Shown in pieces: positions 39,144-50,352 of a stretch of 64,000 nucleotides of DNA. The DNA comes from Nitrospira sp. (GTDB taxonomy: Bacteria > Nitrospirota > Nitrospiria > Nitrospirales > Nitrospiraceae), in contig JACOEM010000001.1 of the NCBI GenBank assembly GCA_024998565.1, positions 248,001 to 312,000 on the forward strand. Reading direction: 5' to 3'. How positions within the stretch are numbered: position 1 is the stretch's first letter; the number at the start of each line of letters is the position of its first letter. A program made the translations under genes and the position numbers. The notes beneath the pieces were generated by a model. It was not told the DNA's origin, did no database searches, and saw only the letters and a program-made list of their open reading frames with translations.

Positions 39144-39227
39144 GCCGAAGTGGTGGAATGGCAGACACGCACGTTTGAGGGGCGTGTGGCGCAAGCCGTG
39201 CGGGTTCAAGTCCCGCCTTCGGCACCA
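39144..39227 (+). tRNA. tRNA-Leu (anticodon GAG), integration target
   Basis: Class-II tRNA: acceptor GCCGAAG / CTTCGGC with encoded CCA; anticodon stem CACGT/GCGTG and loop TTGAGGG (anticodon GAG); long variable arm; T arm CGGGTTCAAGTCCCG. Its last 17 bases plus two flanking bases recur at 50119-50137, so the element restores an intact tRNA on integration. Confidence 0.94.
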
Positions 39228-39229
39228 AC
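39211..39229. repeat. attL: 19-bp direct repeat at the tRNA-Leu 3' end
   Basis: TCCCGCCTTCGGCACCAAC is identical to 50119-50137. It covers the 3' arm of the acceptor stem and CCA, a classical tyrosine-integrase core site. Confidence 0.9.
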
Positions 39230-39293
39230 TTTCAACCCCTGCTGATTCTTCAAGCACTTACGTTTTCTCCTTCTCTCTCCTGCAAACGATTCG

Positions 39294-40439
39294 CTAACCG
39301 TGGAGCAATCGCCCCAGCTTTGCAGCCGCCTCTTGCTGCATGGAGGGTAGAGCATGCGCGTACACGTTGAGCGTGATCTCTATCCGCTTGTGTCCGAGTC
39401 GTTCCGATACCACCTTCACCGGAACCCCTTCCTTGAGGGCCAACGTCGCGCAGGTGTGGCGAAGGCCGTGAAACGTGATCGGTTTCACACCGGCCGCTTT
39501 AATAAGCCTGGCGAACTCCCGTTGCCCGATATTGTTCAAGGTGAGGGGTTGGCCGAAGTCACGGGCAAAGACAAGCCCATGGTCCTTGTAGGCCGTTCCG
39601 AGAAGCAGTTTTTGAGCGGCTTGCGCGGCCTTTTGCTTCCTCAGAACCTCGATGGTCTTCTCATCTAGCAGAACCGTCCGTGACTTCCCGTTCTTCGGTG
39701 GGCCGAATAGTGGCTCGTTGCGGACCTTGACCAACTGGCGAACGATGGAAATGGACTGTCGTTCAACATCGACCTCCGACCACTTGAGCCCGCACAGTTC
39801 CGCCTTTCTGGCCCCGCTATCGAGTGCCAGAGAGTACAGAGCGGCCCCTTGTGGGCTGTCCGCCTTGGCCGTGTCCAGGAACTTCCGCGCCTCTTCGGGC
39901 TCCCAGCAGTTTTGGAGAATGCTTTCATGCCCATCCCTGCGCCGAGGCTTGCCTATGACCAAACTCGCGGCATTGCGTGGAATAAGATCCTGCATCGTGG
40001 CCGCTTTCAAAGCGCTGTGCAGGATCGTGTGATGCTGCTGAAGGGTAGCTGAAGCAAGCTTTTCAGCCTGGTAGTAGGCCTGAAGGTGACTCGCCCTCAA
40101 ATCGCATAGCCGGTATTGGCCTAAAACGGGCTTCAGATGGCGATCAATGACGGATCGGTAGGTTTCATAGGTCCGAAGCCGTTTGTGTGGCTGGATGGCC
40201 GATTTGATCCACTCCTCCAGCCATTCCCCCAAGGTCATGCGTGAGGGGCTGATCACTTGTCCACGGCTCAGGTTGTGGAGCATGTTCGTCAGTTCGGCCT
40301 GAGCTTCCTTCTTGGTCCCCCGAACCGTCTTCCATTTTTGAATGCGCTTGAGCTTGCCTGTCGCCGGATCCACCTTCCGGCCTATGTCGAGCACGATGGT
40401 CCAGCTTCCTTCCGAACGCTGAAAGATATGGCCGCGCAT
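39294..40439 (-). CDS. Tyrosine-family site-specific integrase
   Basis: 381 residues. The catalytic Arg is in LDSGARKAELCGLKW, the HxxR in FHGLRHTCATLAL, the last His/Lys region in ERLGHKRIEITLNVYAH and the nucleophile Tyr in VYAH. The N-terminal SAM-like core-binding domain is at about 65-150. It integrates the element at the tRNA-Leu 3' end; the stop lies 65 bp from attL. Close to full length, so it may be functional. Confidence 0.95.
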   Translation of the reverse strand: MRGHIFQRSEGSWTIVLDIGRKVDPATGKLKRIQKWKTVRGTKKEAQAELTNMLHNLSRGQVISPSRMTLGEWLEEWIKSAIQPHKRLRTYETYRSVIDRHLKPVLGQYRLCDLRASHLQAYYQAEKLASATLQQHHTILHSALKAATMQDLIPRNAASLVIGKPRRRDGHESILQNCWEPEEARKFLDTAKADSPQGAALYSLALDSGARKAELCGLKWSEVDVERQSISIVRQLVKVRNEPLFGPPKNGKSRTVLLDEKTIEVLRKQKAAQAAQKLLLGTAYKDHGLVFARDFGQPLTLNNIGQREFARLIKAAGVKPITFHGLRHTCATLALKEGVPVKVVSERLGHKRIEITLNVYAHALPSMQQEAAAKLGRLLHG

Positions 40440-40442
40440 GTG

Positions 40443-40637
40443 TCACCGTCCTTTCTTGGCCGGCACGTATCGAGCGTAGGTTATTTTTGCAATGTAGACG
40501 TCTGGGTACCGCACCTTCACAGTCTTCAATTTCTTTTTGACATCGGCGAGGCTGCTCATTTGAAAACCGATTGGATCAAACGGATTCCCCGGCTCATCGC
40601 GCACCACTTCGTACACCGTCATTGATTTGGCCATCAT
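40443..40637 (-). CDS. Small element protein A (paralogue of 40873)
   Basis: 64 residues. The sequence resembles the gene at 40873: MTVYEVVRDE start, a middle LADVKKKLKTVKVRYPDVYIAKITYARY and the KKGR tail. No known family. Starts with two consecutive Met codons after GGACGGTGA. Encoded upstream of the integrase on the same strand. Confidence 0.55.
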   Translation of the reverse strand: MMAKSMTVYEVVRDEPGNPFDPIGFQMSSLADVKKKLKTVKVRYPDVYIAKITYARYVPAKKGR

Positions 40638-40683
40638 TCACCGTCCTTCCTGCTGAATATGTTCTTACTGCTAGCCATTTGTT

Positions 40684-40869
40684 TTATTCCTGCTGCGCCA
40701 GATCCTTCAGCGTGTCAGTGAGCCGATTCTCGATAAGACCGAGCATGTAGCGCACTTCGTCGTGTTCGTCCCATTGGCTCTTTGCAATTCGGCAATAACC
40801 CCGCAAATCCTCCACCCGTTGAGAGGCGCGTTTAATAGGGCTGTCCTGCTGTGCCGTCTGTGGCTCCAT
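40684..40869 (-). CDS. Small element protein, unknown
   Basis: 61 residues, Gln/Glu/Arg-rich helical protein (REVRYMLGLIENRLTDTLKDL-type C-terminus). No family recognised. Its ATG lies 3 bp after the stop of the 40873 gene. Probably real because it sits in a tightly packed series, but low confidence. Confidence 0.45.
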   Translation of the reverse strand: MEPQTAQQDSPIKRASQRVEDLRGYCRIAKSQWDEHDEVRYMLGLIENRLTDTLKDLAQQE

Positions 40870-40872
40870 TGA

Positions 40873-41082
40873 TCACCGTCCTTTCTTGACCGCTTTTTTG
40901 CGGTACGGGGCATGGATAACCTTCGCAATATAGGCTCGAGGATATTCCAGGCGTTGCTCTTTCAATTCTTGCAACGCCTCCGCAAGAGTTGGGAATAAGA
41001 GGCCCAGTGAAGGAGTAGGATTTAAGCCTACTGAGTCATCGCACACGTCGTACATAACGATTGTCTTACCCATCGTACTCAC
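40873..41082 (-). CDS. Small element protein B (paralogue of 40443)
   Basis: 69 residues. Shares with 40443 the pattern of an N-terminal KTIVMYDVCDDS strand, then LAEALQELKEQRLEYPRAYIAKVIHAPYR and a KKGR end. The duplication within the element suggests expansion of an unknown small-protein family. No function assigned. Confidence 0.55.
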   Translation of the reverse strand: MSTMGKTIVMYDVCDDSVGLNPTPSLGLLFPTLAEALQELKEQRLEYPRAYIAKVIHAPYRKKAVKKGR

Positions 41083-41129
41083 CTGCCTTTCTGCCCTTTC
41101 GCGGGCTGGTTGAAATGTTCGAAGCTTGC

Positions 41130-41342
41130 CTAACTCTTCGCTTCGTCCTTCAAATACTCTTCGATCTGATCAATCGACGCGTCAAACGTTGACCCCATAA
41201 CCACCATGCCTCTATCGTTCACAAGCTGGTATTCCCCGAGGTTGTTCAAATGAATCCCCCGCTGATCTTTCAAGAGTCGATACCCCAAGCCATTCGCTAA
41301 CTTTCGAACACGGCGCTCTTGTTGTGCGTTGATAGTTTCCAT
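41130..41342 (-). CDS. Small element protein, unknown
   Basis: 70 residues, an alpha-beta protein (RKLANGLGYRLLKDQRGIHL then YQLVNDRGMVVMG). Its ATG lies 2 bp after the stop of the ribbon-helix-helix gene, with GGAGGGG as ribosome site. No family recognised. Confidence 0.5.
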   Translation of the reverse strand: METINAQQERRVRKLANGLGYRLLKDQRGIHLNNLGEYQLVNDRGMVVMGSTFDASIDQIEEYLKDEAKS

Positions 41343-41344
41343 GA

Positions 41345-41500
41345 CTAGCCCCTCCTTTTGGTTGTGGTTTGCTGCAGACCGAAGTGTTGATTGAGTAAAT
41401 GCCGAATCAGGCCGCTGGCAGTCGTTCCGGTTGATCGGAGCGCGTTCAACCTGGCTTTGATCGGCTTTGGGATATGAACGAGGATCTTAACCATTTCCAT
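41345..41500 (-). CDS. Ribbon-helix-helix-type small regulator
   Basis: 51 residues, too short for routine gene calls but with good context. MEMVKILVHIPKPIKARLNA, then a second helix region ASGLIRHLLNQHF: a short strand followed by two helices, as in Arc/MetJ/CopG (RHH) repressors. GGAGG lies 4 bp before the ATG (TGGAGGTCCTATG). It is divergent from the RHH gene at 41605 with an inverted-repeat operator in between. Likely controls the leftward integrase operon. Confidence 0.7.
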   Translation of the reverse strand: MEMVKILVHIPKPIKARLNALRSTGTTASGLIRHLLNQHFGLQQTTTKRRG

Positions 41501-41552
41501 AGGACCTCCATGTGATTATCTGATAGCAGTATATCTAATTATTCAAATGACT

Positions 41553-41571
41553 GTCAATCTATAGGATTGAC
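41553..41571. promoter_or_regulatory. Inverted-repeat operator between the two RHH genes
   Basis: GTCAATC-TATAG-GATTGAC is a perfect 7-bp inverted repeat in an AT-rich gap (41501-41604) between divergent regulators, the expected position for a repressor-binding site that switches direction. Confidence 0.65.
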
Positions 41572-41604
41572 TAGTGATTTCTAGAGCTTGTAATCTGCCG
41601 CCCT

Positions 41605-41778
41605 ATGAGCCGAAAAAAAGACCCAATAGAAAAGAAAGCGTTCGGTATTCGCCTCGATCCGGCGCTGATGAAAGAGCTGCAGTATTTAGCTGTGGACAAA
41701 GAACGGTGGGTTAACGATTTGATCGATGAGTCAATCCGAGACTTACTGAAGAAATACCGCGAAAAGAAAAAACCCTGA
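41605..41778 (+). CDS. Second ribbon-helix-helix-type regulator
   Basis: 57 residues (MSRKKDPIEKKAFGIRLDPA, then LAVDKERWVNDLIDESIRDL). A short beta segment KKAFGIRL followed by two helices fits the RHH fold. Highly basic N- and C-termini. No clear ribosome site is seen. Divergent partner of the 41345 gene; together they form a possible lysogeny switch. Confidence 0.65.
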   Translation: MSRKKDPIEKKAFGIRLDPALMKELQYLAVDKERWVNDLIDESIRDLLKKYREKKKP

Positions 41779-41957
41779 TGACTGACATGTCAGTCATGTC
41801 ATACAGGGACGCTGAAGAACGTTTGCGAGTGGTTTGTAAGCCCTGTAAGTATTTGAAGATGTGAAGGGAAAAAGATGGTGCCGAACAAGATAATGGAAAA
41901 TGTGTCAGCCATGTGAACCAGAGGGCGAACTGTGCCCTAATTCCCGTTGGAGGAAGT

Positions 41958-42296
41958 ATGAGTGATAAAGGCGTTGAAGGCATAGCCTATATAGGGTTGT
42001 GGCTCATCGTGTACTTCCTCCCAACCATCGTTGCTCAAGCACGCAGCCACCACAATACGCTTGCCATTTTCATTCTGAATCTACTCACCGGATGGACGGT
42101 TCTCGGATGGATCATTGCCATTGTCTGGGCCTGCACGCGCGCACAGCCACAACAGCCAATCATTATTCAGCAAGACTTTAGCGAGAAATATGGACGGCCA
42201 GAATGGGAGCGCGGCCAATTACCGCGCAGAACTCCGACCATTCTTCCACCAAATCAATTGCCGGATCATCTATTTGATAAAAAGCGCGATGATTGA
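41958..42296 (+). CDS. Superinfection immunity-like membrane protein
   Basis: 112 residues from the ATG after GGAGGAAGT. Two membrane helices (about 8-28 and 38-60) match the superinfection-immunity family: FILNLLTGWTVLGWIIAIVWAC, as in phage T4 Imm-type proteins that block DNA entry of related phages. A Pro/Gln-rich tail follows. It is the only clear accessory cargo of the element. Confidence 0.78.
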   Translation: MSDKGVEGIAYIGLWLIVYFLPTIVAQARSHHNTLAIFILNLLTGWTVLGWIIAIVWACTRAQPQQPIIIQQDFSEKYGRPEWERGQLPRRTPTILPPNQLPDHLFDKKRDD

Positions 42297-42344
42297 ATGA
42301 TGATATGCGCCTCACGAGACAGGTTTGATTGGTGGAGACCATCG

Positions 42345-42794
42345 ATGAACAGATTTAGAGTGGCACTCATTCCTGCCTTACTGAGTCTTTCAGCCTGCGC
42401 CATGACGGTGAAAGAGTTTAGAGAAACGCCGTTAACGTACCTTGCGGAAGTTCCTGGTCACCATGCAGAGCTGGCGAATTGTCTCATGCATCGGCTTGAG
42501 GAGTCGGTGGATACCTGGCCCAACATGTTTCGGCTGACATCGGAAAAGAATCACTCCTCCCTCATGATCAATCGCCAACAGCTATCCGGCGCCTTCATGA
42601 CAGAGCTTGCGCCGTTGGCTGAACTGATTATTACGCAAACCGATCCTTCACAAGTCCTCATCGAGGAACGTCATCGCAGCGGATGGAACGCCTACGAATA
42701 TCCGCAAAAAGCACGTCGGTTTTTTTCAGCCTGCGGTCAACAATCGATCAGCCACCTCACCTTCACTTTCCATACTTCTAGTCATCTGAATTAA
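42345..42794 (+). CDS. Putative lipoprotein of the element
   Basis: 149 residues from the Met before NRFRVALIPALLSLSAC; the signal ends at lipobox LSAC (Cys near 18). Ribosome site GGTGGAG precedes it. An upstream Met in frame would add 16 non-signal residues. The mature part has no family I recognise. Encoded with the immunity protein and probably a lysogenic-conversion (cell-surface) factor, which is inference. Confidence 0.6.
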   Translation: MNRFRVALIPALLSLSACAMTVKEFRETPLTYLAEVPGHHAELANCLMHRLEESVDTWPNMFRLTSEKNHSSLMINRQQLSGAFMTELAPLAELIITQTDPSQVLIEERHRSGWNAYEYPQKARRFFSACGQQSISHLTFTFHTSSHLN

Positions 42795-42919
42795 TTATTC
42801 TCCACACGACCTTACAACCAAGGTATGCAGGAGAGAGGCACACCTAAACCTCTCTCCCGCACTACAGCCGGACACCCAGCCATACACGTAGCGGCGATAA
42901 AACGCCCGTGACCTGCTCC

Positions 42920-43660
42920 CTAGCTGCGAGCTGCCACAAACTTAGAAGGAGACAGTCCTTCAAGTTCCGTGTCACTCGCCAACATCCGGGTGTTGGGATC
43001 TAGCTTTAATATCTCGATGATCGCTTCCCTGGTGACAGCCAACCATCGCAGCCAATTTCCCACGCTCTCTCGAATCATGTTCAGCACATCGAGTAGCAGC
43101 TTGTTCTGTTCGTAGATCTTGTAATCTTCCGGGAACACGCGCTTGGCACGCGCCTCAAGTGCCCTGGTCTTCACGTCCTCACTGACCATCTGTCCAACTG
43201 GAGCGTCCAGAAGAGCCAGCAGGGTTTCGTCTCCGTCGTGTTCAGCGGCATGAAGAAACACAGCATCCCGTTCCGGCTGAGTCATATCGACATAGTGGCC
43301 CCGAATCTCCTGTTCCCGGAGGAACTGAATCGTTTCATCCCGCTTTGGTCGCACCACGGTAAAGAGGCGAGTCGATAACTGTCTCAGGTGGTCCTCGATC
43401 TCTCCGATCTTGACCCCAAACCCTTTGAAACCTGCCAACGCCTTCGTAGCTTCTTCAGCGAGTTTCGCCCGCTTGCCTTCGTCGCTCATGAAGCGATCGG
43501 CCGTGATGCGCTTCTCGATGACTTCATAACTTTCGACGTTCTTCAGCACGCCGCCAAGTAGCTCTGTTCGACGGTTCAGGAAAGGTGTCTCCATGTTCCG
43601 CCGGTTGTAATTGATCATCTCGTTCGAGATGAGAATCCTGAGTGATGGTGTGTTTAACAT
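42920..43660 (-). CDS. Hypothetical phage-element protein
   Basis: 246 residues, mostly helical. The middle part has heptad-like segments (VRPKRDETIQFLREQEIRGH) and the C-terminal half is amphipathic. No signal peptide. No recognised family. It is downstream of the gp10-like and tape-measure genes on the same strand, so it could be a tail-related gene or a cargo gene; the evidence does not decide. Confidence 0.5.
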   Translation of the reverse strand: MLNTPSLRILISNEMINYNRRNMETPFLNRRTELLGGVLKNVESYEVIEKRITADRFMSDEGKRAKLAEEATKALAGFKGFGVKIGEIEDHLRQLSTRLFTVVRPKRDETIQFLREQEIRGHYVDMTQPERDAVFLHAAEHDGDETLLALLDAPVGQMVSEDVKTRALEARAKRVFPEDYKIYEQNKLLLDVLNMIRESVGNWLRWLAVTREAIIEILKLDPNTRMLASDTELEGLSPSKFVAARS

Positions 43661-43697
43661 AGGGTCTGGAACCTCCTTGGTTGTTGTGAATGCCTGT

Positions 43698-44180
43698 TCA
43701 AGCTCCTGTCAGCCTGTTCAGGTTGTTGGTGACTTCCATGAGTGATAGCGCCATCATGCCCCGTGGCGCTTGCCGGCTGGAGCCCTTCTCTAACTCCACG
43801 ATGTAGGGCAGATTGTTGGTGATATAGATCGGGGGAAGCCGTTTCCTCGCATCGGCGCCATAGGTCGCGAGTACTGTTGCAGCCTTGAGGCCGCTCAGCT
43901 GCTCGCCGGTATACGCCCCCTCAGGCATCACCCGAAGATCAGGCGCACCGATGGCAATATTCCAAGAGGCGCGAGCGCGTCCGGTGTCCACTGGCGTCTT
44001 TTGGATGATCCGCCTGAACAGATCGACCGCAACCCGCTTGGTGAGGATTGCTCCATCAAGTTCTACTTTTTGCGCGAACCGTTTGAGGGCGCGTTCAAAT
44101 TTTGGATAGTCGGCCTTCAACATCGATTCAGGCCCTTCCGTTTGCAAAATCGGTTTAGCATTGGTGCTGATCTCCTGCAT
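43698..44180 (-). CDS. HK97 gp10-like tail/neck protein
   Basis: 160 residues. The core has the gp10-type pattern TPVDTGRARASWNIAIG and later ITNNLPYIVELEKGSSRQAP (about residues 60-145), matching the family that forms the tail-to-head connector or tail completion ring of siphophages. Start codon uncertain: no good ribosome site. Directly follows the tape-measure gene in transcription order. Confidence 0.8.
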   Translation of the reverse strand: MQEISTNAKPILQTEGPESMLKADYPKFERALKRFAQKVELDGAILTKRVAVDLFRRIIQKTPVDTGRARASWNIAIGAPDLRVMPEGAYTGEQLSGLKAATVLATYGADARKRLPPIYITNNLPYIVELEKGSSRQAPRGMMALSLMEVTNNLNRLTGA

Positions 44181-44230
44181 TCATGCCGGTTCTAGCCTCT
44201 TGTGTTCCGAACAGTCTCTTCGGCTTCACC

Positions 44231-46588
44231 TTAGCCGCGCCTCACGGGTACGCGATTCGCGCCGAATTGTTTCATGAATGGATCATATTCCCCATTTCTC
44301 ATGCCGCGCTTGACCACGTTGTTAATAAACACGTCGATCTGCGGATTCCCATCCGGCCCTTGTCGCGTTTCGGTCTGCACGTCCGCATTCGCGGAGTTAT
44401 GCACGTTCACCGTGACCGGCATGGACATGGTTGTTGAAGGCCGCTGGGGGGTGAAGTGATCACCTCTCCATTCCACCGGAATGGAACGGCCGTTCGGCAA
44501 TGGAACGATGGCTTCTCTGTATCGACCTTCCCCGGCAATCGCGGGACCATCCGTGATTCCCCCATCGGCGAAGCCTTTCATTCCCAACAACGAGGCCGCG
44601 TTGAATCCGCCAGCTGGTATGGCACCGCCACCGCTACTGAACAGACCAGGCAGCGCATCAAGCCCCGTCAGTAGGCTTCGACTGATGAGCTTCGAGCCCA
44701 CATCCGCCACCATGTTCTTCATAAAGTCAGTGAGCCCTTGCAGGACATCTTTCAGCCCTTTGACCTTTCCCTCCATCGCATCGAAGAAGAACGTCTTGAA
44801 GCTTTGTTGCATAGCTTGAGCGACGGATCGGGCCTGATCTGCGCCAAGCCCGAACATGCTTTGATCTTGGACATACCGTTTCATCGACTTGGCAAATCCG
44901 CCAAAGAAGTCATCGGAGAACTTCTCCGACACCGCCCGTTGATCCGCCAAAGCCCCCATCATGATCGTGGTGACTTGGTCCCAGGTGTATCGTGTGTTTT
45001 CCAGCAATTCAGCCGCACGGATGCTGTCGCCATTCCTCCAGGCGTTCAGCACCTTCTCCGCTGTCTCAAAGGTGACATCCAACTCCTTTGCGAGAGTGGC
45101 CCTCACGAGGTCATATTGAGTCGTAAGTTGATTCTCGCGGGAGGTGCCGTAGGCCTCTTGGAACTTGGCAAGGTTCTGGTAATACGCAATCGTGTCATCT
45201 TGGGATTTGTGCCGAAGGTCTTCCTCAACTTTGAAAGTCGAGATCAACCCATCCGTAATCTGTCGCCCCATTTGCTCTTGCAGGCTACCCTGCAGGACCT
45301 TCTGTTCCTCTAGGAATTCGGTTGAAGCATGATTGAACTCCTGTACGCTCTTCGCCACTTCCGCATTGATCGATGCGACTTTGGTCTTATAGGTTTCTTC
45401 CGCTTTGATCTTTTCCTCTGTGGTTTCGAAGCCCAACGCAATACGGGCGTGATACGTCTCTGTTTCCAGCTGCAGCAGTTTGCTTTGCGTTTCTCCCTCA
45501 AGTGCCAGCTCACGCAACTTCGCGTCCTGCTGAGCCTTGAGAAAGTCCAGTGCGCCCACACCGGCCCCGACTCCCTGTTGCCCCTGCTGCTGATCAAATC
45601 CCAGCAGCCTGCTTTGATGCTGTAATCCCGAAATGGTGCTGTTACGTTCCGCCTCGATCTGCGCCCGCATACGCTCAGCGCTACCCTCAGCTTGAATCGC
45701 CCGCAGCTTAGGATCGAGCTGAAAGGCCTCTGCGCTGCTCTTTCCCTGCAGGCTCTTGTCCAGCGCCATCGGCTTGAGCGAGAAGAACTCATTAAACTTC
45801 TTCTCGCCTTCTCCGATGATCGGGAGTAGCTGAGTTAATTTGTCGTATAAGTAATTCACGCCTTGATCGGCCAGGAACAAAAGCGACGTGCTGAGCCGAG
45901 ACGCTTCATTCCCCATATCTTTCAACCGCGCTTCCATCTCGGCCATTTTGTCCGCCGAGGAAGGGGCCGAATCTCCGACCTTCTGCATAGTCTTGTCGAG
46001 GCTCTCAAGAATGGCATTCGCTCCCAACGTGGCCCGCTCCTGCTTAGAAATCTGCTCAACGGTGCGATTCGTCGAGACCGCATACCTCCTGACCGTTTCC
46101 TCAAGATCGATGTAAATTCCCTTCGCCTGCAAAGACCGTGAACTCATCGTCGCGGTGGACTGCAACAGCTCGTCAATCGAACTCTTGACGGTACCTCCGT
46201 AAACATCGCTCAACACTTCCCCGGCTGCTGCCATCTTCTCGATCTGATCGGGATTCATACTTTGCATGAGCCCTTTGCTGGCGATCTCAGCCGCTTCAGC
46301 CATGGACAGCTGTCCACCTGTCACACTCTTCAAGCGGCTCACCATGTGATCAGCCGTTTGATTGAACACCCCGGCTTGCCGGTTCAAACGAGCCAGGGTT
46401 TCATCGAATTCAGCCCCTTGCTTGGCCACTCTCCAAGCTTGTTCCATGGTCCGCTCGAACACGAAGACCTTAGCGGACATGCCAACCCAGGAATTGGAAA
46501 TCCTTTGGATGGTGGCCTCCATCGTCGCCGCGCCCTGTTGAAACCCACTCGGATCGATTCGTGTACTTAGAACTGCCTCATCGGACAT
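44231..46588 (-). CDS. Phage tail length tape-measure protein
   Basis: 785 residues. Long heptad-rich helical region from about 250 to 600; an N-terminal segment with MAEAAEIASKGLM; and a C-terminus typical of tape-measure proteins, Gly-rich (GGGAIPAGGFNAASLLGMKG) then an exported-like tail GEGRYREAIVPLPNG. By the usual 0.15 nm per residue, it would set a tail of about 118 nm if still functional. Upstream is a block of small unknown genes, and the gp10-like gene lies downstream. Confidence 0.88.
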   Translation of the reverse strand: MSDEAVLSTRIDPSGFQQGAATMEATIQRISNSWVGMSAKVFVFERTMEQAWRVAKQGAEFDETLARLNRQAGVFNQTADHMVSRLKSVTGGQLSMAEAAEIASKGLMQSMNPDQIEKMAAAGEVLSDVYGGTVKSSIDELLQSTATMSSRSLQAKGIYIDLEETVRRYAVSTNRTVEQISKQERATLGANAILESLDKTMQKVGDSAPSSADKMAEMEARLKDMGNEASRLSTSLLFLADQGVNYLYDKLTQLLPIIGEGEKKFNEFFSLKPMALDKSLQGKSSAEAFQLDPKLRAIQAEGSAERMRAQIEAERNSTISGLQHQSRLLGFDQQQGQQGVGAGVGALDFLKAQQDAKLRELALEGETQSKLLQLETETYHARIALGFETTEEKIKAEETYKTKVASINAEVAKSVQEFNHASTEFLEEQKVLQGSLQEQMGRQITDGLISTFKVEEDLRHKSQDDTIAYYQNLAKFQEAYGTSRENQLTTQYDLVRATLAKELDVTFETAEKVLNAWRNGDSIRAAELLENTRYTWDQVTTIMMGALADQRAVSEKFSDDFFGGFAKSMKRYVQDQSMFGLGADQARSVAQAMQQSFKTFFFDAMEGKVKGLKDVLQGLTDFMKNMVADVGSKLISRSLLTGLDALPGLFSSGGGAIPAGGFNAASLLGMKGFADGGITDGPAIAGEGRYREAIVPLPNGRSIPVEWRGDHFTPQRPSTTMSMPVTVNVHNSANADVQTETRQGPDGNPQIDVFINNVVKRGMRNGEYDPFMKQFGANRVPVRRG

Positions 46589-46639
46589 AGGGCCTCCAGC
46601 GTTTGTAAGTGGCTTGCATGGCTCTGTAACTGTGCGTTT

Positions 46640-46963
46640 TCATGCGTTCAATTTTCCGCCGTCGAACTTCAGCTTCGGCACCTTTGCACTTCCCCCGGCC
46701 CAGAACGGCAGCTCATGCCACTTTGCGCCGTTCACGATGCATTCATGCCAAAGCGGGACAAGTGCCTCCCAGTCTTCCAAAGTGATTTGGACAGGAAACA
46801 CCATCAAAGCATCACCAGGCTTCAGCAGGCCGCACTTGTGGGCCTGATCCACGGCTTCGTCTTCCGTCATTTCTGAAGAGTCATAGTTGACCACCACCCA
46901 GCGAGGCTTCCCACTGGTTTGACCGTCGAGGCGTTCCAGTCTTTTCCGAAGCGATCGATTCAA
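46640..46963 (-). CDS. Hypothetical element protein (RLERLD start)
   Basis: 107 residues from a TTG placed 2 bp after the stop of the 46966 gene, with GGAGG 7 bp ahead. N-terminus LNRSLRKRLERLDGQTSG resembles that of the 47319 gene. The rest, with WVVVNYDSSEMTEDEAVDQA, is unrecognised. Packed tightly in the block upstream of the tape measure. Confidence 0.5.
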   Translation of the reverse strand: MNRSLRKRLERLDGQTSGKPRWVVVNYDSSEMTEDEAVDQAHKCGLLKPGDALMVFPVQITLEDWEALVPLWHECIVNGAKWHELPFWAGGSAKVPKLKFDGGKLNA

Positions 46964-46965
46964 GG

Positions 46966-47322
46966 CTAGGCCTCCGGGTACATCACGGCTACTAGCTCGT
47001 TCCACTCGCTAGAGCCTTTGACGATCCGCAATTCTCGATCGTGGTAATAAATGACGCAGAGCGGCTGCCCCTGGCTCTGCGCCTCTTCCCTCACATACGC
47101 AATCTCTCTCACGTCGATATGCGCCCCCTGAATTCGCAGGTACGTTGAAGGAAGCAGCGCTTGAAGCTCTGTCCATTTGGGGGAGTCAGATCGAATTCGA
47201 AAATGACGGCCGATGTAATACACAACGATCATCGGCGCAGCCTGCTGGTGCTGCGGCTCTTCCTGAATGAAGTCGATCTTTGCTAAATCGATATGCGTAT
47301 CTTCGACCTGAAAAAACTTCAC
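46966..47322 (-). CDS. Hypothetical protein with internal duplication
   Basis: 118 residues made of two similar halves: IDLAKIDFIQEEPQHQQAAP...VVYYIGRHFRIRSDSPKWTELQALLP and IDVREIAYVREEAQSQGQPL...VIYYHDRELRIVKGSSEWNELVAVMYP. Overlaps the 47319 gene by 4 bp (ATGA). A family with the repeated motif is not known to me. Confidence 0.55.
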   Translation of the reverse strand: MKFFQVEDTHIDLAKIDFIQEEPQHQQAAPMIVVYYIGRHFRIRSDSPKWTELQALLPSTYLRIQGAHIDVREIAYVREEAQSQGQPLCVIYYHDRELRIVKGSSEWNELVAVMYPEA

Positions 47323-47564
47323 GATGCCCTCCCTACTTCGAAATTAAGAACCCGCCCGCGCCGTCTGGAAATTGGCCCCGATTCGTACGAAAACCCGCTG
47401 GCCGAATGCCGCATGTTCGCTTCACTTTGTCCGGCCTCGTAGTGCTGCCAGTCCTTCGCCCATTCATCGAATGATGGGTACGTCTCCGGGACAAGAAGAA
47501 ATCCGCCACGATCCTCAGTCCGGACTTCGAGACGTTCCAGCCGTTTAAGCAATCCCTGCTTCAT
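47319..47564 (-). CDS. Hypothetical element protein (RLERLE start)
   Basis: 81 residues. N-terminus MKQGLLKRLERLEVRTEDRG resembles the 46640 gene's start, so the two may share a domain. Remainder unrecognised. Overlaps both neighbours by 4 bp (ATGA), as in phage operons. Confidence 0.5.
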   Translation of the reverse strand: MKQGLLKRLERLEVRTEDRGGFLLVPETYPSFDEWAKDWQHYEAGQSEANMRHSASGFSYESGPISRRRGRVLNFEVGRAS

Positions 47565-47896
47565 GCGTTCACCGTGATGCTGACTCCACCTTCGAATTCA
47601 TTTCCCACGCGCCCGCCTTCGAGCTTCGCAAGGCGAGACTCAAACTCTTCGACCTCAATGCAGTTGATAAGCTGGTTCGCCAGGTAGCCCATGGTGTTGG
47701 CCTTTTTGGTCGAAAGGCGTCCGCGTTTCACTTCCAAGATGCAGAACCGAAGCATCCGGCGAACGTCGCCAATCGTCGCCAGCGCTTGCCAATCCCTCCC
47801 CCCAGTCCTGCCCGCATTGCCTTGATTTGACGCCACGTTATTTGCTCCCTGTGTCATGCCAGCGCTCTTGCGGATCGCGCTCTGTGACTGGTTCAT
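47561..47896 (-). CDS. Hypothetical element protein, helical
   Basis: 111 residues, with the N-terminal part low in structure and a helical core from about 40 to 85 (IGDVRRMLRFCILEVKRGRL, then KANTMGYLANQLINCIEVEE). This pattern recurs in phage-associated small proteins next to tail and terminase genes, though I cannot name it. Start at the Met after GGAAAG; a second Met 39 bp in is also possible. Confidence 0.5.
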   Translation of the reverse strand: MNQSQSAIRKSAGMTQGANNVASNQGNAGRTGGRDWQALATIGDVRRMLRFCILEVKRGRLSTKKANTMGYLANQLINCIEVEEFESRLAKLEGGRVGNEFEGGVSITVNA

Positions 47897-48050
47897 AGGT
47901 CTTTCCAGGTCTCGCCGCCGGTTCGGCTTCCTCGGCCTTCTGAATCAGCAGACTGCCAAGATTCAGCGCAGCCGCCCAAGAAAGCCTGATCTCGTTTCCC
48001 TCGCCTCGAATAATCACCTGATTTCGACTTGGATCAGTGAACACTTGCAT
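47838..48050 (-). CDS. Hypothetical element protein, small
   Basis: 70 residues with a beta-rich start (QVIIRGEGNEIRLSWAAALN) and a charged C-terminus. Overlaps the 47561 gene by 59 bp, more than is usual, so one of the starts may be further downstream. No family. Confidence 0.4.
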   Translation of the reverse strand: MQVFTDPSRNQVIIRGEGNEIRLSWAAALNLGSLLIQKAEEAEPAARPGKTYEPVTERDPQERWHDTGSK

Positions 48051-48319
48051 AGAGCCTCCTTTGTGAACCCCATGGCCTCAGGCCGGCACTTGAGCACCGA
48101 CCTGAGGGGATACTTATCCATGGTAGTCGCCTCCGTTCATGGAGGCGTTCAGACGGGGATGAGCCGTCTGAAGATGTGAAATTTTGACAAATGAACGCGA
48201 AAACGCCGCACCAGCATTGCTTAGGATGGTGCTTCTGCATGAGAGGAGGAGAGGAGATCATCTCTTCTCTCTTCATCTCCTCTCTGCTCTCTTCATCTTT
48301 CACTTCACTTCTGCTCATT

Positions 48320-48799
48320 TCAGTTCATCCGAGGGGTACCCTTTGACCCCCTCCTAGAAGACAAAACCGGCGCTCCTGCTGCGCGTTCGATCAGACTCAA
48401 CACAACCAATCGAGGCATTTCGTAAGTTTCCAATTCGCGCAACTTCCCGTCGCGCCCTGCTTTCTTTTTCGTGTGCCCAAGCTCTGCCAACCAGTACCCA
48501 TGAAAGACTTGAGGCGTCATGCGGTCGCCTCGCTTCGGCTTTCCGCCGTTCGCCAAACACCACACTTCAAAATATTTTGAGCTAGGGCTGATCGGTCCAT
48601 TCTCAGGAGCGGCGAAATACATCGTGACAACTTTCTTCGCCCATCGGGCTGGTTCAACAATCACAAAATCCATTTCAATCTTGTTCCGATTGAAGCGCAC
48701 GACCCTTCTAGATCGCGCATAGCTGATAAGATATTTACCCGCTGGTGGCTGCTCATGGTCTGGTGCCTCTGGCCAATCTTCATCCTGATATTCCGTCAC
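48320..48799 (-). CDS. Hypothetical element protein
   Basis: 159 residues from a GTG with an AGGGCGAAG-type ribosome site; a longer in-frame version would overlap the excisionase-like gene and read as non-coding. N-terminal acidic segment; middle KYLISYARSRRVVRFNRNKI and a VTMYFAAPENG region are beta-rich. Unrecognised. Follows the excisionase-like gene by about 34 bp. Confidence 0.55.
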   Translation of the reverse strand: MTEYQDEDWPEAPDHEQPPAGKYLISYARSRRVVRFNRNKIEMDFVIVEPARWAKKVVTMYFAAPENGPISPSSKYFEVWCLANGGKPKRGDRMTPQVFHGYWLAELGHTKKKAGRDGKLRELETYEMPRLVVLSLIERAAGAPVLSSRRGSKGTPRMN

Positions 48800-48833
48800 G
48801 CTTCGCCCTCTGCCACGTAAGGATGTGCAACGA

Positions 48834-49073
48834 TCACTTCGCCTCTGGTCCCGTGACAGTGGGCCGCAAGGACTCCTTCGGGATTCGCACAAGCCTGCCA
48901 AACCGACGTGATGGCAAGGTGCCTTTTCGGCAGAGGTCATACACCGTGACAAGGCCACTTCTTAGAAACTGTGCCGCTTGAGCCGGTGGAACCCAGTCCG
49001 GAAGGTCATGAAATTGGATCGGCGGGCCAAGTGGTCGACGGGGGCGCTTTGAGGCTGATTTGACGTGCGGCAT
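48834..49073 (-). CDS. Excisionase-like helix-turn-helix protein
   Basis: 79 residues with an AGGAGGAATC ribosome site. Core WVPPAQAAQFLRSGLVTVYD, followed by RRFGRLVRIPKESL: a winged HTH of the MerR/excisionase type that binds near att sites and assists integrase. Basic N-terminus. Suits control of integration or excision. Confidence 0.75.
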   Translation of the reverse strand: MPHVKSASKRPRRPLGPPIQFHDLPDWVPPAQAAQFLRSGLVTVYDLCRKGTLPSRRFGRLVRIPKESLRPTVTGPEAK

Positions 49074-49174
49074 CTGATTCCTCCTTTACATTGAACACAT
49101 GGAATGTGTTCCCGAAAGAAAGGCTACCGCTCGCACAGAAGTTTAAGAATATGTTTTATCGACTGGCGTTAAAG

Positions 49175-49984
49175 CTAAGAAACTGGGGCTAGGGTGGGGT
49201 AAGGAAAATATTGATCCAGATCATCAGGGGGAAAGTTCAGTGCTAGGTAAATCGCTTCATCGTGAAATTGTTTGCCCCGAGGGGCGGCTTGATCATTAGA
49301 TGATTCCAGGTGCTCCCCTAAGAGAACCTTGCCAATCTTCTCATAGGTCACACCTTGATCTCGGGCATCCAGAGTACGCAAATAAAGTGGCCACGCATCT
49401 TTCTTCGGTCGTCTAAACAATTCCTTTCCGAATCGGTGAACTTGCATGTGTTTCAGTAACCGATGAACCATCTTTACTTGTTGGTGGAGAGGACTGGAAA
49501 GGTCGAAGGAGAACATGACTTCATTCTCTTTCAGAACAAAACCTCCAGTACCATCCATAGGACCTTCTAACATTCCGCAGAAGCCTAAAAGGAACTGCAA
49601 ATTAGAAGGAACTCTGATTGATGGATTCGGCAGGAGTCCCCCCGCAAGGCCATATCGCTTGATACGAGACATGGCTGCTGTGAACAATGCCGGATTCTGA
49701 TCGTAGAGGTATACCGCCTCAGCTCGGAAAGCCGGATCGTCTGGTGTGGGAACGTGGATTGCGGGTATCTCTCCAGCGGCTCGCTCAAGCTGCCACCTAT
49801 ACGAGGCTTCCGCGTGAGTTTTCCAATCTTCTCGATAATCAGACAAACGCCGCAAGAATTCCCAACGCCAGAGGGTAAGACTCAATCCCTCTGGCCTGGG
49901 ATACTCGTCCGGATCACGCCAATCCGGAATATTCCAAGGATTCTGTTTGCGAGGCCTTTTTAAGGGCCGGCGAGAAGGTGACAT
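49175..49984 (-). CDS. Element protein with a transcriptional-regulator-like N-terminus
   Basis: 269 residues. N-terminal WRDPDEYPRPEGLSLTLWRW then FLRRLSDYREDW is a small domain that recurs in proteins of integrative elements. The rest is helical and unrecognised (KKDAWPLYLRTLDARDQGVT near the C-terminus). It is the first gene of the leftward block and has a repeated sequence CGTATARCATG at its start. Confidence 0.6.
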   Translation of the reverse strand: MSPSRRPLKRPRKQNPWNIPDWRDPDEYPRPEGLSLTLWRWEFLRRLSDYREDWKTHAEASYRWQLERAAGEIPAIHVPTPDDPAFRAEAVYLYDQNPALFTAAMSRIKRYGLAGGLLPNPSIRVPSNLQFLLGFCGMLEGPMDGTGGFVLKENEVMFSFDLSSPLHQQVKMVHRLLKHMQVHRFGKELFRRPKKDAWPLYLRTLDARDQGVTYEKIGKVLLGEHLESSNDQAAPRGKQFHDEAIYLALNFPPDDLDQYFPYPTLAPVS

Positions 49985-50042
49985 GCTATACGTTTTACAA
50001 ACCCTACTAGCCGAATAGGAAGACTTGTAAACATGTTATACG
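49981..50042. promoter_or_regulatory. Paired repeats at the start of the leftward operon
   Basis: ACATGCTATACG (49981-49992) and ACATGTTATACG (50031-50042) are direct repeats 50 bp apart with one mismatch. Between them, TTTTACAA (49993) and TTGTAAAC (50025) form an inverted pair. The first copy covers the ATG of the 49984 gene. It probably holds promoter and operator elements. Confidence 0.45.
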
Positions 50043-50115
50043 AACTGCTAATAGAGGAAAAGCCGTAACATCGCGCTAATTTGAAAGCAAACCATCCATG
50101 CGTATGAATGTTGCT

Positions 50116-50352
50116 TCATCCCGCCTTCGGCACCAACCTCAACAGTCGTTCGACGAACTCGCGGTCCTTCAGCAATTCCCGCAGAGACGGTACGTTCCCT
50201 TCAGCACTATCTTCAGGCGCCTCTTCCTTCCGGCAGGTGCACCCAGCCAGCACGTACGCCGTCCGCCTCGTTGTGCGGCCACCAGCCAGGATCGACGGCT
50301 CTGCGATGACTCCTCCGCCACAGATAAACGGCCCTATTCCACTAGGGCCCAA
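50116..50352 (-). CDS. Possible small gene ending in attR
   Basis: An open frame of 78 residues whose last codons (VPKAG then stop) are read from the att repeat. The C-terminal SLRELLKDREFVERLLRLVP looks protein-like, but the N-terminus is weak, starts with a TTG and lacks a clear ribosome site. It could also be chance. Low confidence. Confidence 0.25.
   Translation of the reverse strand: MGPSGIGPFICGGGVIAEPSILAGGRTTRRTAYVLAGCTCRKEEAPEDSAEGNVPSLRELLKDREFVERLLRLVPKAG
50119..50137. repeat. attR: 19-bp direct repeat
   Basis: Exact copy of 39211-39229 (TCCCGCCTTCGGCACCAAC). Marks the right end of the element. Confidence 0.9.

Follow-up and report, generated by a model that had tools for sequence, protein, structure and literature searches.

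The window analysed here is a stretch of 64,000 nucleotides from a Nitrospira sp. genome (assembly GCA_024998565.1, contig JACOEM010000001.1, positions 248,001 to 312,000), and it contains an integrated element of 10,908 bp, measured start-to-start between two exact 19-bp repeats, that lies within the 3' end of a tRNA-Leu(GAG) gene (Table 1). The repeat has two copies in the window and none on the opposite strand; from base composition, 1.7e-7 occurrences would be expected by chance per 20 kb of one strand, which rules out a chance repeat. The GC content of the element is 52.9%, versus 59% in both flanks, and the listed open reading frames (ORFs) cover 0.89 of its length. An Rfam scan returned the tRNA as the sole match. 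DNA of the right flank was matched in 28 of the 29 genomes of the genus, and an uninterrupted tRNA-Leu(GAG) gene is present in all eight of the relatives' loci examined (L109-L116, taken from the 28). When joined, the two window flanks aligned across the junction in each of these loci, as a single alignment in seven; for L116 the alignment is split in two, and its first piece spans the junction. The limits 39211-50137, which a preliminary description of this DNA had set by the exact repeats and by an integrase beside the tRNA, are thus correct, with empty sites in eight of eight relatives. In G025 (contig C17; L056 10244-10982), an integrase about 88% identical to that of this element, split in two frames, stands beside the same flanking kinase gene; the remainder of the element is absent there.

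Table 1. Features of the element and of its insertion site (coordinates are positions in the window).
Feature	Coordinates	Strand	Basis
tRNA-Leu(GAG), integration target	39144..39227	+	ARAGORN; Rfam RF00005
att repeat copy, tRNA 3' end	39211..39229		exact 19-bp repeat; empty sites in relatives
Tyrosine integrase, 381 aa	39294..40439	-	phrog_1 6.4e-77; PF00589 1.5e-30
Three small genes, 64, 61 and 69 aa	40443..41082	-	BLAST family fam3 in 7 loci; tblastn
Two small genes, 70 and 51 aa	41130..41500	-	tblastn; 51-aa gene has relatives in most related elements mapped
Ribbon-helix-helix (Arc-like) regulator, divergent from preceding genes	41605..41778	+	phrog_3180 5e-6; PF20605 1e-5, slightly under cut-off
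Superinfection-immunity family protein, 127 aa	41913..42296	+	PF14373 3.5e-19; phrog_1039 4.3e-24
165-aa gene, no family match	42297..42794	+	N-terminus resembles lipoprotein signal by eye
u246, 246 aa, no assigned function	42920..43660	-	related genes in 7 further genomes (395 searched)
Neck / tail-completion protein (HK97 gp10 type), 160 aa	43698..44180	-	phrog_169 3.1e-32; model fold match
Tape-measure protein, 785 aa, intact	44231..46588	-	phrog_1292 2.7e-9; profile to 9b45_a 1.1e-5
Five backbone genes, no family, 121, 118, 81, 111 and 70 aa	46640..48050	-	5/5 recur in G021
212-aa ORF, no family	48320..48958	-	Pfam/PHROGs scan
HTH_17 protein, AlpA/Xis type, 79 aa	48834..49073	-	PF12728 6.5e-9; phrog_10045 3.1e-4; phrog_66 (excisionase) 0.0098
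Regulator-like protein, 269 aa	49175..49984	-	PF20109 3.1e-6, above cut-off; PF10074 0.0035, below cut-off
att repeat copy, far end	50119..50137		exact 19-bp repeat; relatives' flank homology starts here

The 20 ORFs of the element were scanned against Pfam and PHROGs at E<=0.1. The gene for the tape-measure protein (TMP), which had been called complete-looking, is indeed free of internal stops. Its PHROGs match is confined to the C-terminus. A 12-row profile of TMP and its relatives matched the solved phage tape-measure chain 9b45_a; two designed repeat proteins outscored this chain in the same search (1.9e-15 and 2.1e-12). In the relatives' gene sets, five members each matched tape-measure families, the best value among the families listed (2.2e-50) belonging to a set that includes the phage copy of G083. 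As a single sequence, TMP found its best PDB match in an Mce-family protein (3.2e-4), which we read as coiled-coil likeness. The search of annotated phages gave 18 records and that of plasmids 200, none of which covers 80% of the query. Single-sequence scans with TMP and the neck protein in viral contigs, and with TMP in genome contigs, found no relatives; later profile scans found some.

The neighbouring gene had been described as HK97-gp10-like, and this identity is borne out by phrog_169 ('tail completion or Neck1'), by matches in 1,407 phage records and by fold matches to viral proteins; the Pfam match to HK97-gp10_like (0.00086) was slightly under the cut-off. An AlphaFold model of the neck protein built from 42 rows (mean pLDDT 82.9) gave 12 matches at E<=0.001 among predicted viral proteins, including a 'tail completion protein' and HK97-gp10-family proteins. 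The same model had no Foldseek match in the PDB at E<=0.001, its best VIA-align score was Z 5.1, to ClbS, a level deemed uninformative, and sequence comparison with the PDB gave chance-level matches only. An earlier model from three sequences (pLDDT 54.9) was not used. No terminase, portal, capsid, lysis or known replication family was matched by any of the 20 ORFs, just as the preliminary description had stated. This gene content rules out a complete prophage, for lack of terminase, portal and capsid, and a gene transfer agent, for lack of any head or terminase gene.

Counting this genome, TMP relatives were found in 13 of the family's 175 genomes. Ten of the other 12 have them in small elements; in G083 the relative belongs to a tail operon of phage type, which includes L-like and J genes, and G018 has TMP scraps on a 6.7-kb contig. 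Two IMG/VR contigs, L058 and L121, contain elements of the same make-up; the search for related elements elsewhere that the preliminary description had proposed therefore yielded small TMP-bearing elements in ten other genomes of the family and in two virus contigs. L121 lies beside a tRNA-Leu(CAG) gene and is closely related to the element of G159 (integrase 96% and TMP 86% identical). Exact repeats at a tRNA bound five elements, namely this one, those of G021 (11.7 kb) and G159 (12.6 kb) at tRNA-Leu(CAG), that of G020 (16.2 kb) at tRNA-Ser(CGA) and that of G059 (9.4 kb) at tRNA-Arg(ACG). The elements of G107 and G078 adjoin tRNA-Glu(CTC) and those of G124 and G092 tRNA-Lys(TTT), all with no exact repeat of length 12 or more; the element of G140 lies near tRNA-Gly(CCC), and the G086 locus showed no tRNA. 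Among the 80 neck-bearing virus loci kept, an integrase like those of this set was present only in L121 and in a second view of the L058 contig. A wider profile search gave TMP-like matches in 35 of the 395 genomes of the phylum, and the one such genome inspected outside the family, G190, is phage-type. The tail operon of G083 (contig C32; L026 1-17633) stands at a contig start, and two satellite-type elements have TMPs close to its own; the head-gene families searched for had no match in the G083 genome. In G131, two identical two-gene units (276 and 445 aa; L057 2749-4865 and 9134-11250) lie near a related integrase and are perhaps an insertion sequence.

The virion-gene content was compared in a marker table covering 13 TMP-bearing elements (this one, the ten from other genomes, L058 and L121), whose stretches were cut by hand and, for the relatives, whose ORFs came from a simple script; the G018 contig was also run, uncounted, and three TMP-less elements were run for comparison. 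The table detects only homologues of its markers, which cross-match between different phages and some of which were named by position or likeness. Since TMP served as bait, its presence in 13 of 13 is by construction. An integrase was found in 12 elements (none in G140), a DnaD-like loader and a small terminase (TerS) in seven each, a piece resembling the N-terminus of J in eight (weakly in L121), the neck protein in six, a capsid in three, a protease in two and a tail assembly chaperone (TAC) in one. The J-like pieces that were checked align with roughly residues 45-200 of a phage protein of 899 aa and have no stops. In L058, capsid, neck, TerS, TAC, TMP and J-like piece occur all together. 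G092 contains two genes of the J-N-terminus-like type, 50% identical, that flank a fam7 gene immediately before TMP (L031 9447-11189). Markers for the tube-like protein (two proteins labelled 'minor tail protein' in PHROGs, phrog_290), terminator, M/L-type proteins, portal and large terminase (TerL) were found in none of the 13 elements. Because position and length alone gave the names of both 'portal' markers and of one 'TerL' marker among three, the absence of portal and terminase is drawn from profile searches for the genomes, which gave no match to portal (PF05136, PF04860) or large terminase (strong phrog_2, PF05876) inside these elements, and from the markers for L058 and L121. The absence of gene classes in relatives is taken from the marker table, because the tallies of their gene families show the 25 commonest of 108, 101, 38 and 32 families.

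The preliminary description had left three options, a satellite, a tail-like particle or a remnant. A tail-like particle is unsupported, because no tube, terminator or M/L-type marker occurs in any of the 13 elements, and a tailocin is ruled out by the absence of tube, terminator and tip markers among the ORFs of this element and in the marker table. The preliminary description had also named a phage containing this region as an observation that would speak against it. A phage with this module does exist: on the contig L059, capsid, Ad1, neck, terminator, tube-like protein and TAC precede TMP. The order there runs neck, terminator, tube-like protein, TAC, TMP, whereas here TMP is followed by the neck gene, which implies that the element is something other than a simple interrupted fragment of such a phage.

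We also compared elements without TMP. The second element of G107 (L035/L036; G107:C1 ~562,100-571,600) is 9.4 kb long, lies at tRNA-Phe with a 20-bp repeat and carries TerL, TerS and capsid genes, no TMP, and an integrase 57% identical to that of this element. The second element of G020 has the G021 backbone with a 99% identical integrase and retains four of the five backbone genes; the 4.7 kb that in G021 holds TMP, J-like piece, neck, u246 and immunity gene corresponds to 7 bp in it. An altered end of the gene preceding the 7-bp site suggests that a deletion took place. G045 lacks all of the virion markers. Judged from these sequences, TMP is common in the sample, yet not universal.

The TMP frame is open in all 13 elements, at 652-833 aa, and the neck frame in six of six. 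Between this element and that of G021, omega was 0.14 for TMP, 0.12 for the neck gene, 0.14 for u246 and 0.03 for the integrase, with dS near-saturated; between G159 and L121 it was 0.28 for TMP (dS 0.43), 0.33 for the neck gene and 0.06 for the integrase. TMP is under purifying selection, and the earlier suggestion that selection rather than decay may have kept this gene set is supported. Broken copies of TMP in relatives, a further point raised in advance, were found as the scraps of G018, whereas none of the 13 element frames is broken. In the comparison with G021, the rows for the immunity gene and the 111- and 70-aa backbone genes had stops in the G021 stretch chosen; after realignment, the aligned parts of the two backbone genes are stop-free. 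The G021 immunity gene (L040 9672-10052) has three in-frame stops, and the adjacent tape measure is intact.

In a TMP tree of 21 rows (13 from elements and 8 from phages), element and phage copies are interleaved, with eight changes between the two, at least seven of them forced by well-supported branches, and the labels cluster no more than when shuffled. This interleaving indicates that elements and phages have exchanged TMP repeatedly; descent of all TMP-bearing elements from one captured TMP is unsupported by the tree. The count of exchanges is rough because TMP is mosaic and two tree rows are very long; the phage rows include short contigs (L059, 8.6 kb; L061, 13 kb), G136 is uncertain as an element, L121 was left out and the G059 TMP has 15 unread residues.

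Several of the remaining genes recur in related elements. The 64- and 69-aa genes are mutual relatives and are also found beside the integrases of related elements. Two paralogous small genes have 20 bp in common at their 3' ends (40443-40462 and 40873-40892, 95% identity), a local duplication. Relatives of the HTH_17 gene sit at the same end of other elements. The 212-aa ORF overlaps the next gene, so its true start is probably further in. No convincing match was returned by a PDB sequence search with the 269-aa protein or with u246, and a profile search of viral contigs found no relative of u246. In two of the seven other genomes with u246 relatives, one such gene adjoins a primase-like gene. 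Large proteins near u246 relatives in L104 (9753-13927) and L105 (10216-14540) match each other at 71%, and that of L105 matches solved phage-type primases (2.9e-11); these loci look like another integrative element family.

We consider it moderately probable that the element is a satellite of lambda/HK97-type siphophages, similar to the phage-inducible chromosomal islands (PICIs), that contributes its own TMP and neck protein to chimeric tails. Its status as a satellite is well supported by the family of integrase-bearing elements and by the selection described above. By analogy with known satellites, we infer the tail mechanism as well as excision, packaging and incorporation. Upon infection by a siphophage of this type, the element would excise and multiply, and helper proteins would package its DNA into helper heads. 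The element's TMP and neck protein would replace those of the helper in a chimeric tail, with the tube, terminator and tip supplied by the helper. From its 785 aa, at the 10-15 nm per 95 aa used in PMC12987554, TMP would specify a tail ~80-125 nm long. Since other small virion parts take their place or accompany them in related elements, genes of this kind would serve as a swappable part matched to the helper.

Several observations weigh against a satellite with its own tail parts. Searches of the genome for PF05065, PF05876, PF05136 and PF04860 gave no match, and the genome's only phrog_2 match is weak, of a kind present in all 13 genomes searched (1e-5 to 2e-7), which probably represents a shared cellular protein; the one strong phrog_2 match is G018:C219 (2.3e-42). 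With these head, terminase and portal families unmatched, no resident helper is seen in the genome. TerS, TAC, a replication protein and a J-like piece were not recognised in this element by the Pfam/PHROGs scan and the marker table. TMP-less elements with related integrases exist, those of G045 and the second elements of G020 and G107, and that of G020 has lost its TMP module. The sample was drawn with TMP as bait, so that its TMP counts are not a frequency among satellites. Finally, TMP is reduced to scraps in G018, the G092 integrase contains two stops, and the G086 stretch examined has no complete integrase frame. A candidate helper type, to judge from its genes, is the phage-type cluster L106 of the same genus (G017:C1, 76,000-95,900), which has a TerL like that of the G107 element, a protease like those of the G124 and G078 elements and a 1,028-aa tape measure.

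A broader proposal, which we put forward tentatively and hold at less than an even chance, is that Nitrospira hosts modular tail-replacing satellites in which TMP, with the neck protein, TAC or J-N-terminus-like piece, is the helper-matching part, retaken from successive siphophage helpers; the TMP-neck pair would then make distinct satellite tails that are joined to satellite-filled heads.

An alternative that we regard as unlikely is that TMP and the neck protein are decoys, which would spoil the tail assembly of infecting phages, protect the host and be absent from satellite particles. Tail assembly is a known target of defence borne by satellites and prophages (PMC11364771; Rta in PMC12987554), the element carries a superinfection-immunity family gene, and no packaging gene was recognised among its 20 ORFs. 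However, the tail blockers described in the accessible portions of these two papers are not full tape measures, Rta having 80 aa, whereas the TMP frames stay at 652-833 aa throughout the 13 elements; the TerS, capsid, TAC or protease genes added by relatives are also a better fit to particle building.

It is still less likely that the element is a decaying prophage remnant that has lost its head, tube and lysis genes. Decay is indeed seen among relatives, in the G018 scraps, the G092 integrase stops, the three stops of the G021 immunity gene and the interrupted integrase of G025. However, the att repeats are precise and the empty site is present, TMP has an open frame in 13 of 13 elements and omega values of 0.14-0.28, a similar reduced gene set recurs at several tRNAs, and the order of TMP and neck is unlike that of phages.

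The element could also be an integrative element, moved by conjugation or otherwise, that captured phage genes and put them to another use. The 269-aa gene at the far end matches PF20109 and, weakly, PF10074, which we take to be domains of integrative conjugative element regulators. We consider this origin very improbable, since no relaxase or conjugation family was matched by any of the 20 ORFs, the size falls within the 7-20 kb given for satellites in the accessible text of PMC13376191, and relatives carry capsid, TerS and protease genes.

Among known satellites, the phage-inducible chromosomal minimalist islands (PICMIs; PMC10803314) are likewise small integrated elements, and their AlpA was sought with PF12728, the model matched by the HTH_17 gene here. 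In contrast to this element, with its tRNA site and virion genes, they insert at fis and carry a primase, as far as that paper's available part describes them. With PICIs (PMC6092414), the element shares size, an integrase, divergent regulators and an AlpA/Xis-like gene, and many of its relatives have TerS. Of the PICI layout of integrase, regulator and replication genes in a conserved order, the integrase, ribbon-helix-helix and HTH_17 genes are present here, no replication protein was recognised, and the DnaD-like loader occurs in 7 of 13 relatives. Its 10.9 kb is close to, and below, the ~12-15 kb of PICIs, which have their own att, and its att is precise. However, the accessible text of PMC6092414 defines PICIs by the absence of phage structural genes, of which this element has two, and it is thus 'PICI-like' only. 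Capsid-forming PICIs (cf-PICIs) are also satellites with virion genes of their own, and putative tmp genes are reported for some of them (PMC12987554); the second element of G107, with TerL, TerS and capsid, is similar to them. Unlike cf-PICIs, this element has no capsid of its own among its 20 ORFs, nor has the genome a PF05065 match.

The closest likeness is to the phage-inducible chromosomal island-like elements (PLEs) of Vibrio cholerae, of which PMC12987554 treats PLE11, PLE1 and PLE4. Like the element described here, these are satellite-sized integrated elements with their own tape measure; they encode TMP and TAC, and some of them a baseplate hub, a set echoed by L058 with its TAC, TMP and J-N-terminus-like piece. 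According to that paper, PLE11 particles contain the TMP and hub of PLE11 in place of the phage's, their tails are ~10 nm shorter, and transduction falls by 96-99.9% when tmp is deleted, as tested in three PLEs; the paper states that the way in which the satellite's TMP gains preference over the phage's is unknown. The helper of PLEs is the contractile-tailed ICP1, in a host of another phylum, whereas the genes here are of siphophage type and include a neck gene. The likeness is one of gene content, and chimeric particles have been seen for PLEs, whereas here it is the genes that are seen. PMC12987554, of 2026, presents PLEs as the first known case of satellites that build chimeric tails and suggests that the habit is wider. 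Within the literature searched, partly at abstract level, satellite tape measures are reported only in that paper, and a search largely without subscription papers found no literature linking phage satellites with Nitrospira. The kind of satellite has thus been known since 2026, and the phylum, the siphophage genes, the neck-TMP pair and the repeated exchange appear to be new. Being an independent family from a different phylum, with genes of siphophage type, repeated TMP exchange and a natural pair of elements with and without the module, these elements offer comparative material on the purpose of the tape-measure swap; if the reading is true, the element is also a possible gene carrier among nitrifiers. 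Taken together, these comparisons suggest that the element most likely works like a PLE-type satellite with chimeric tails.

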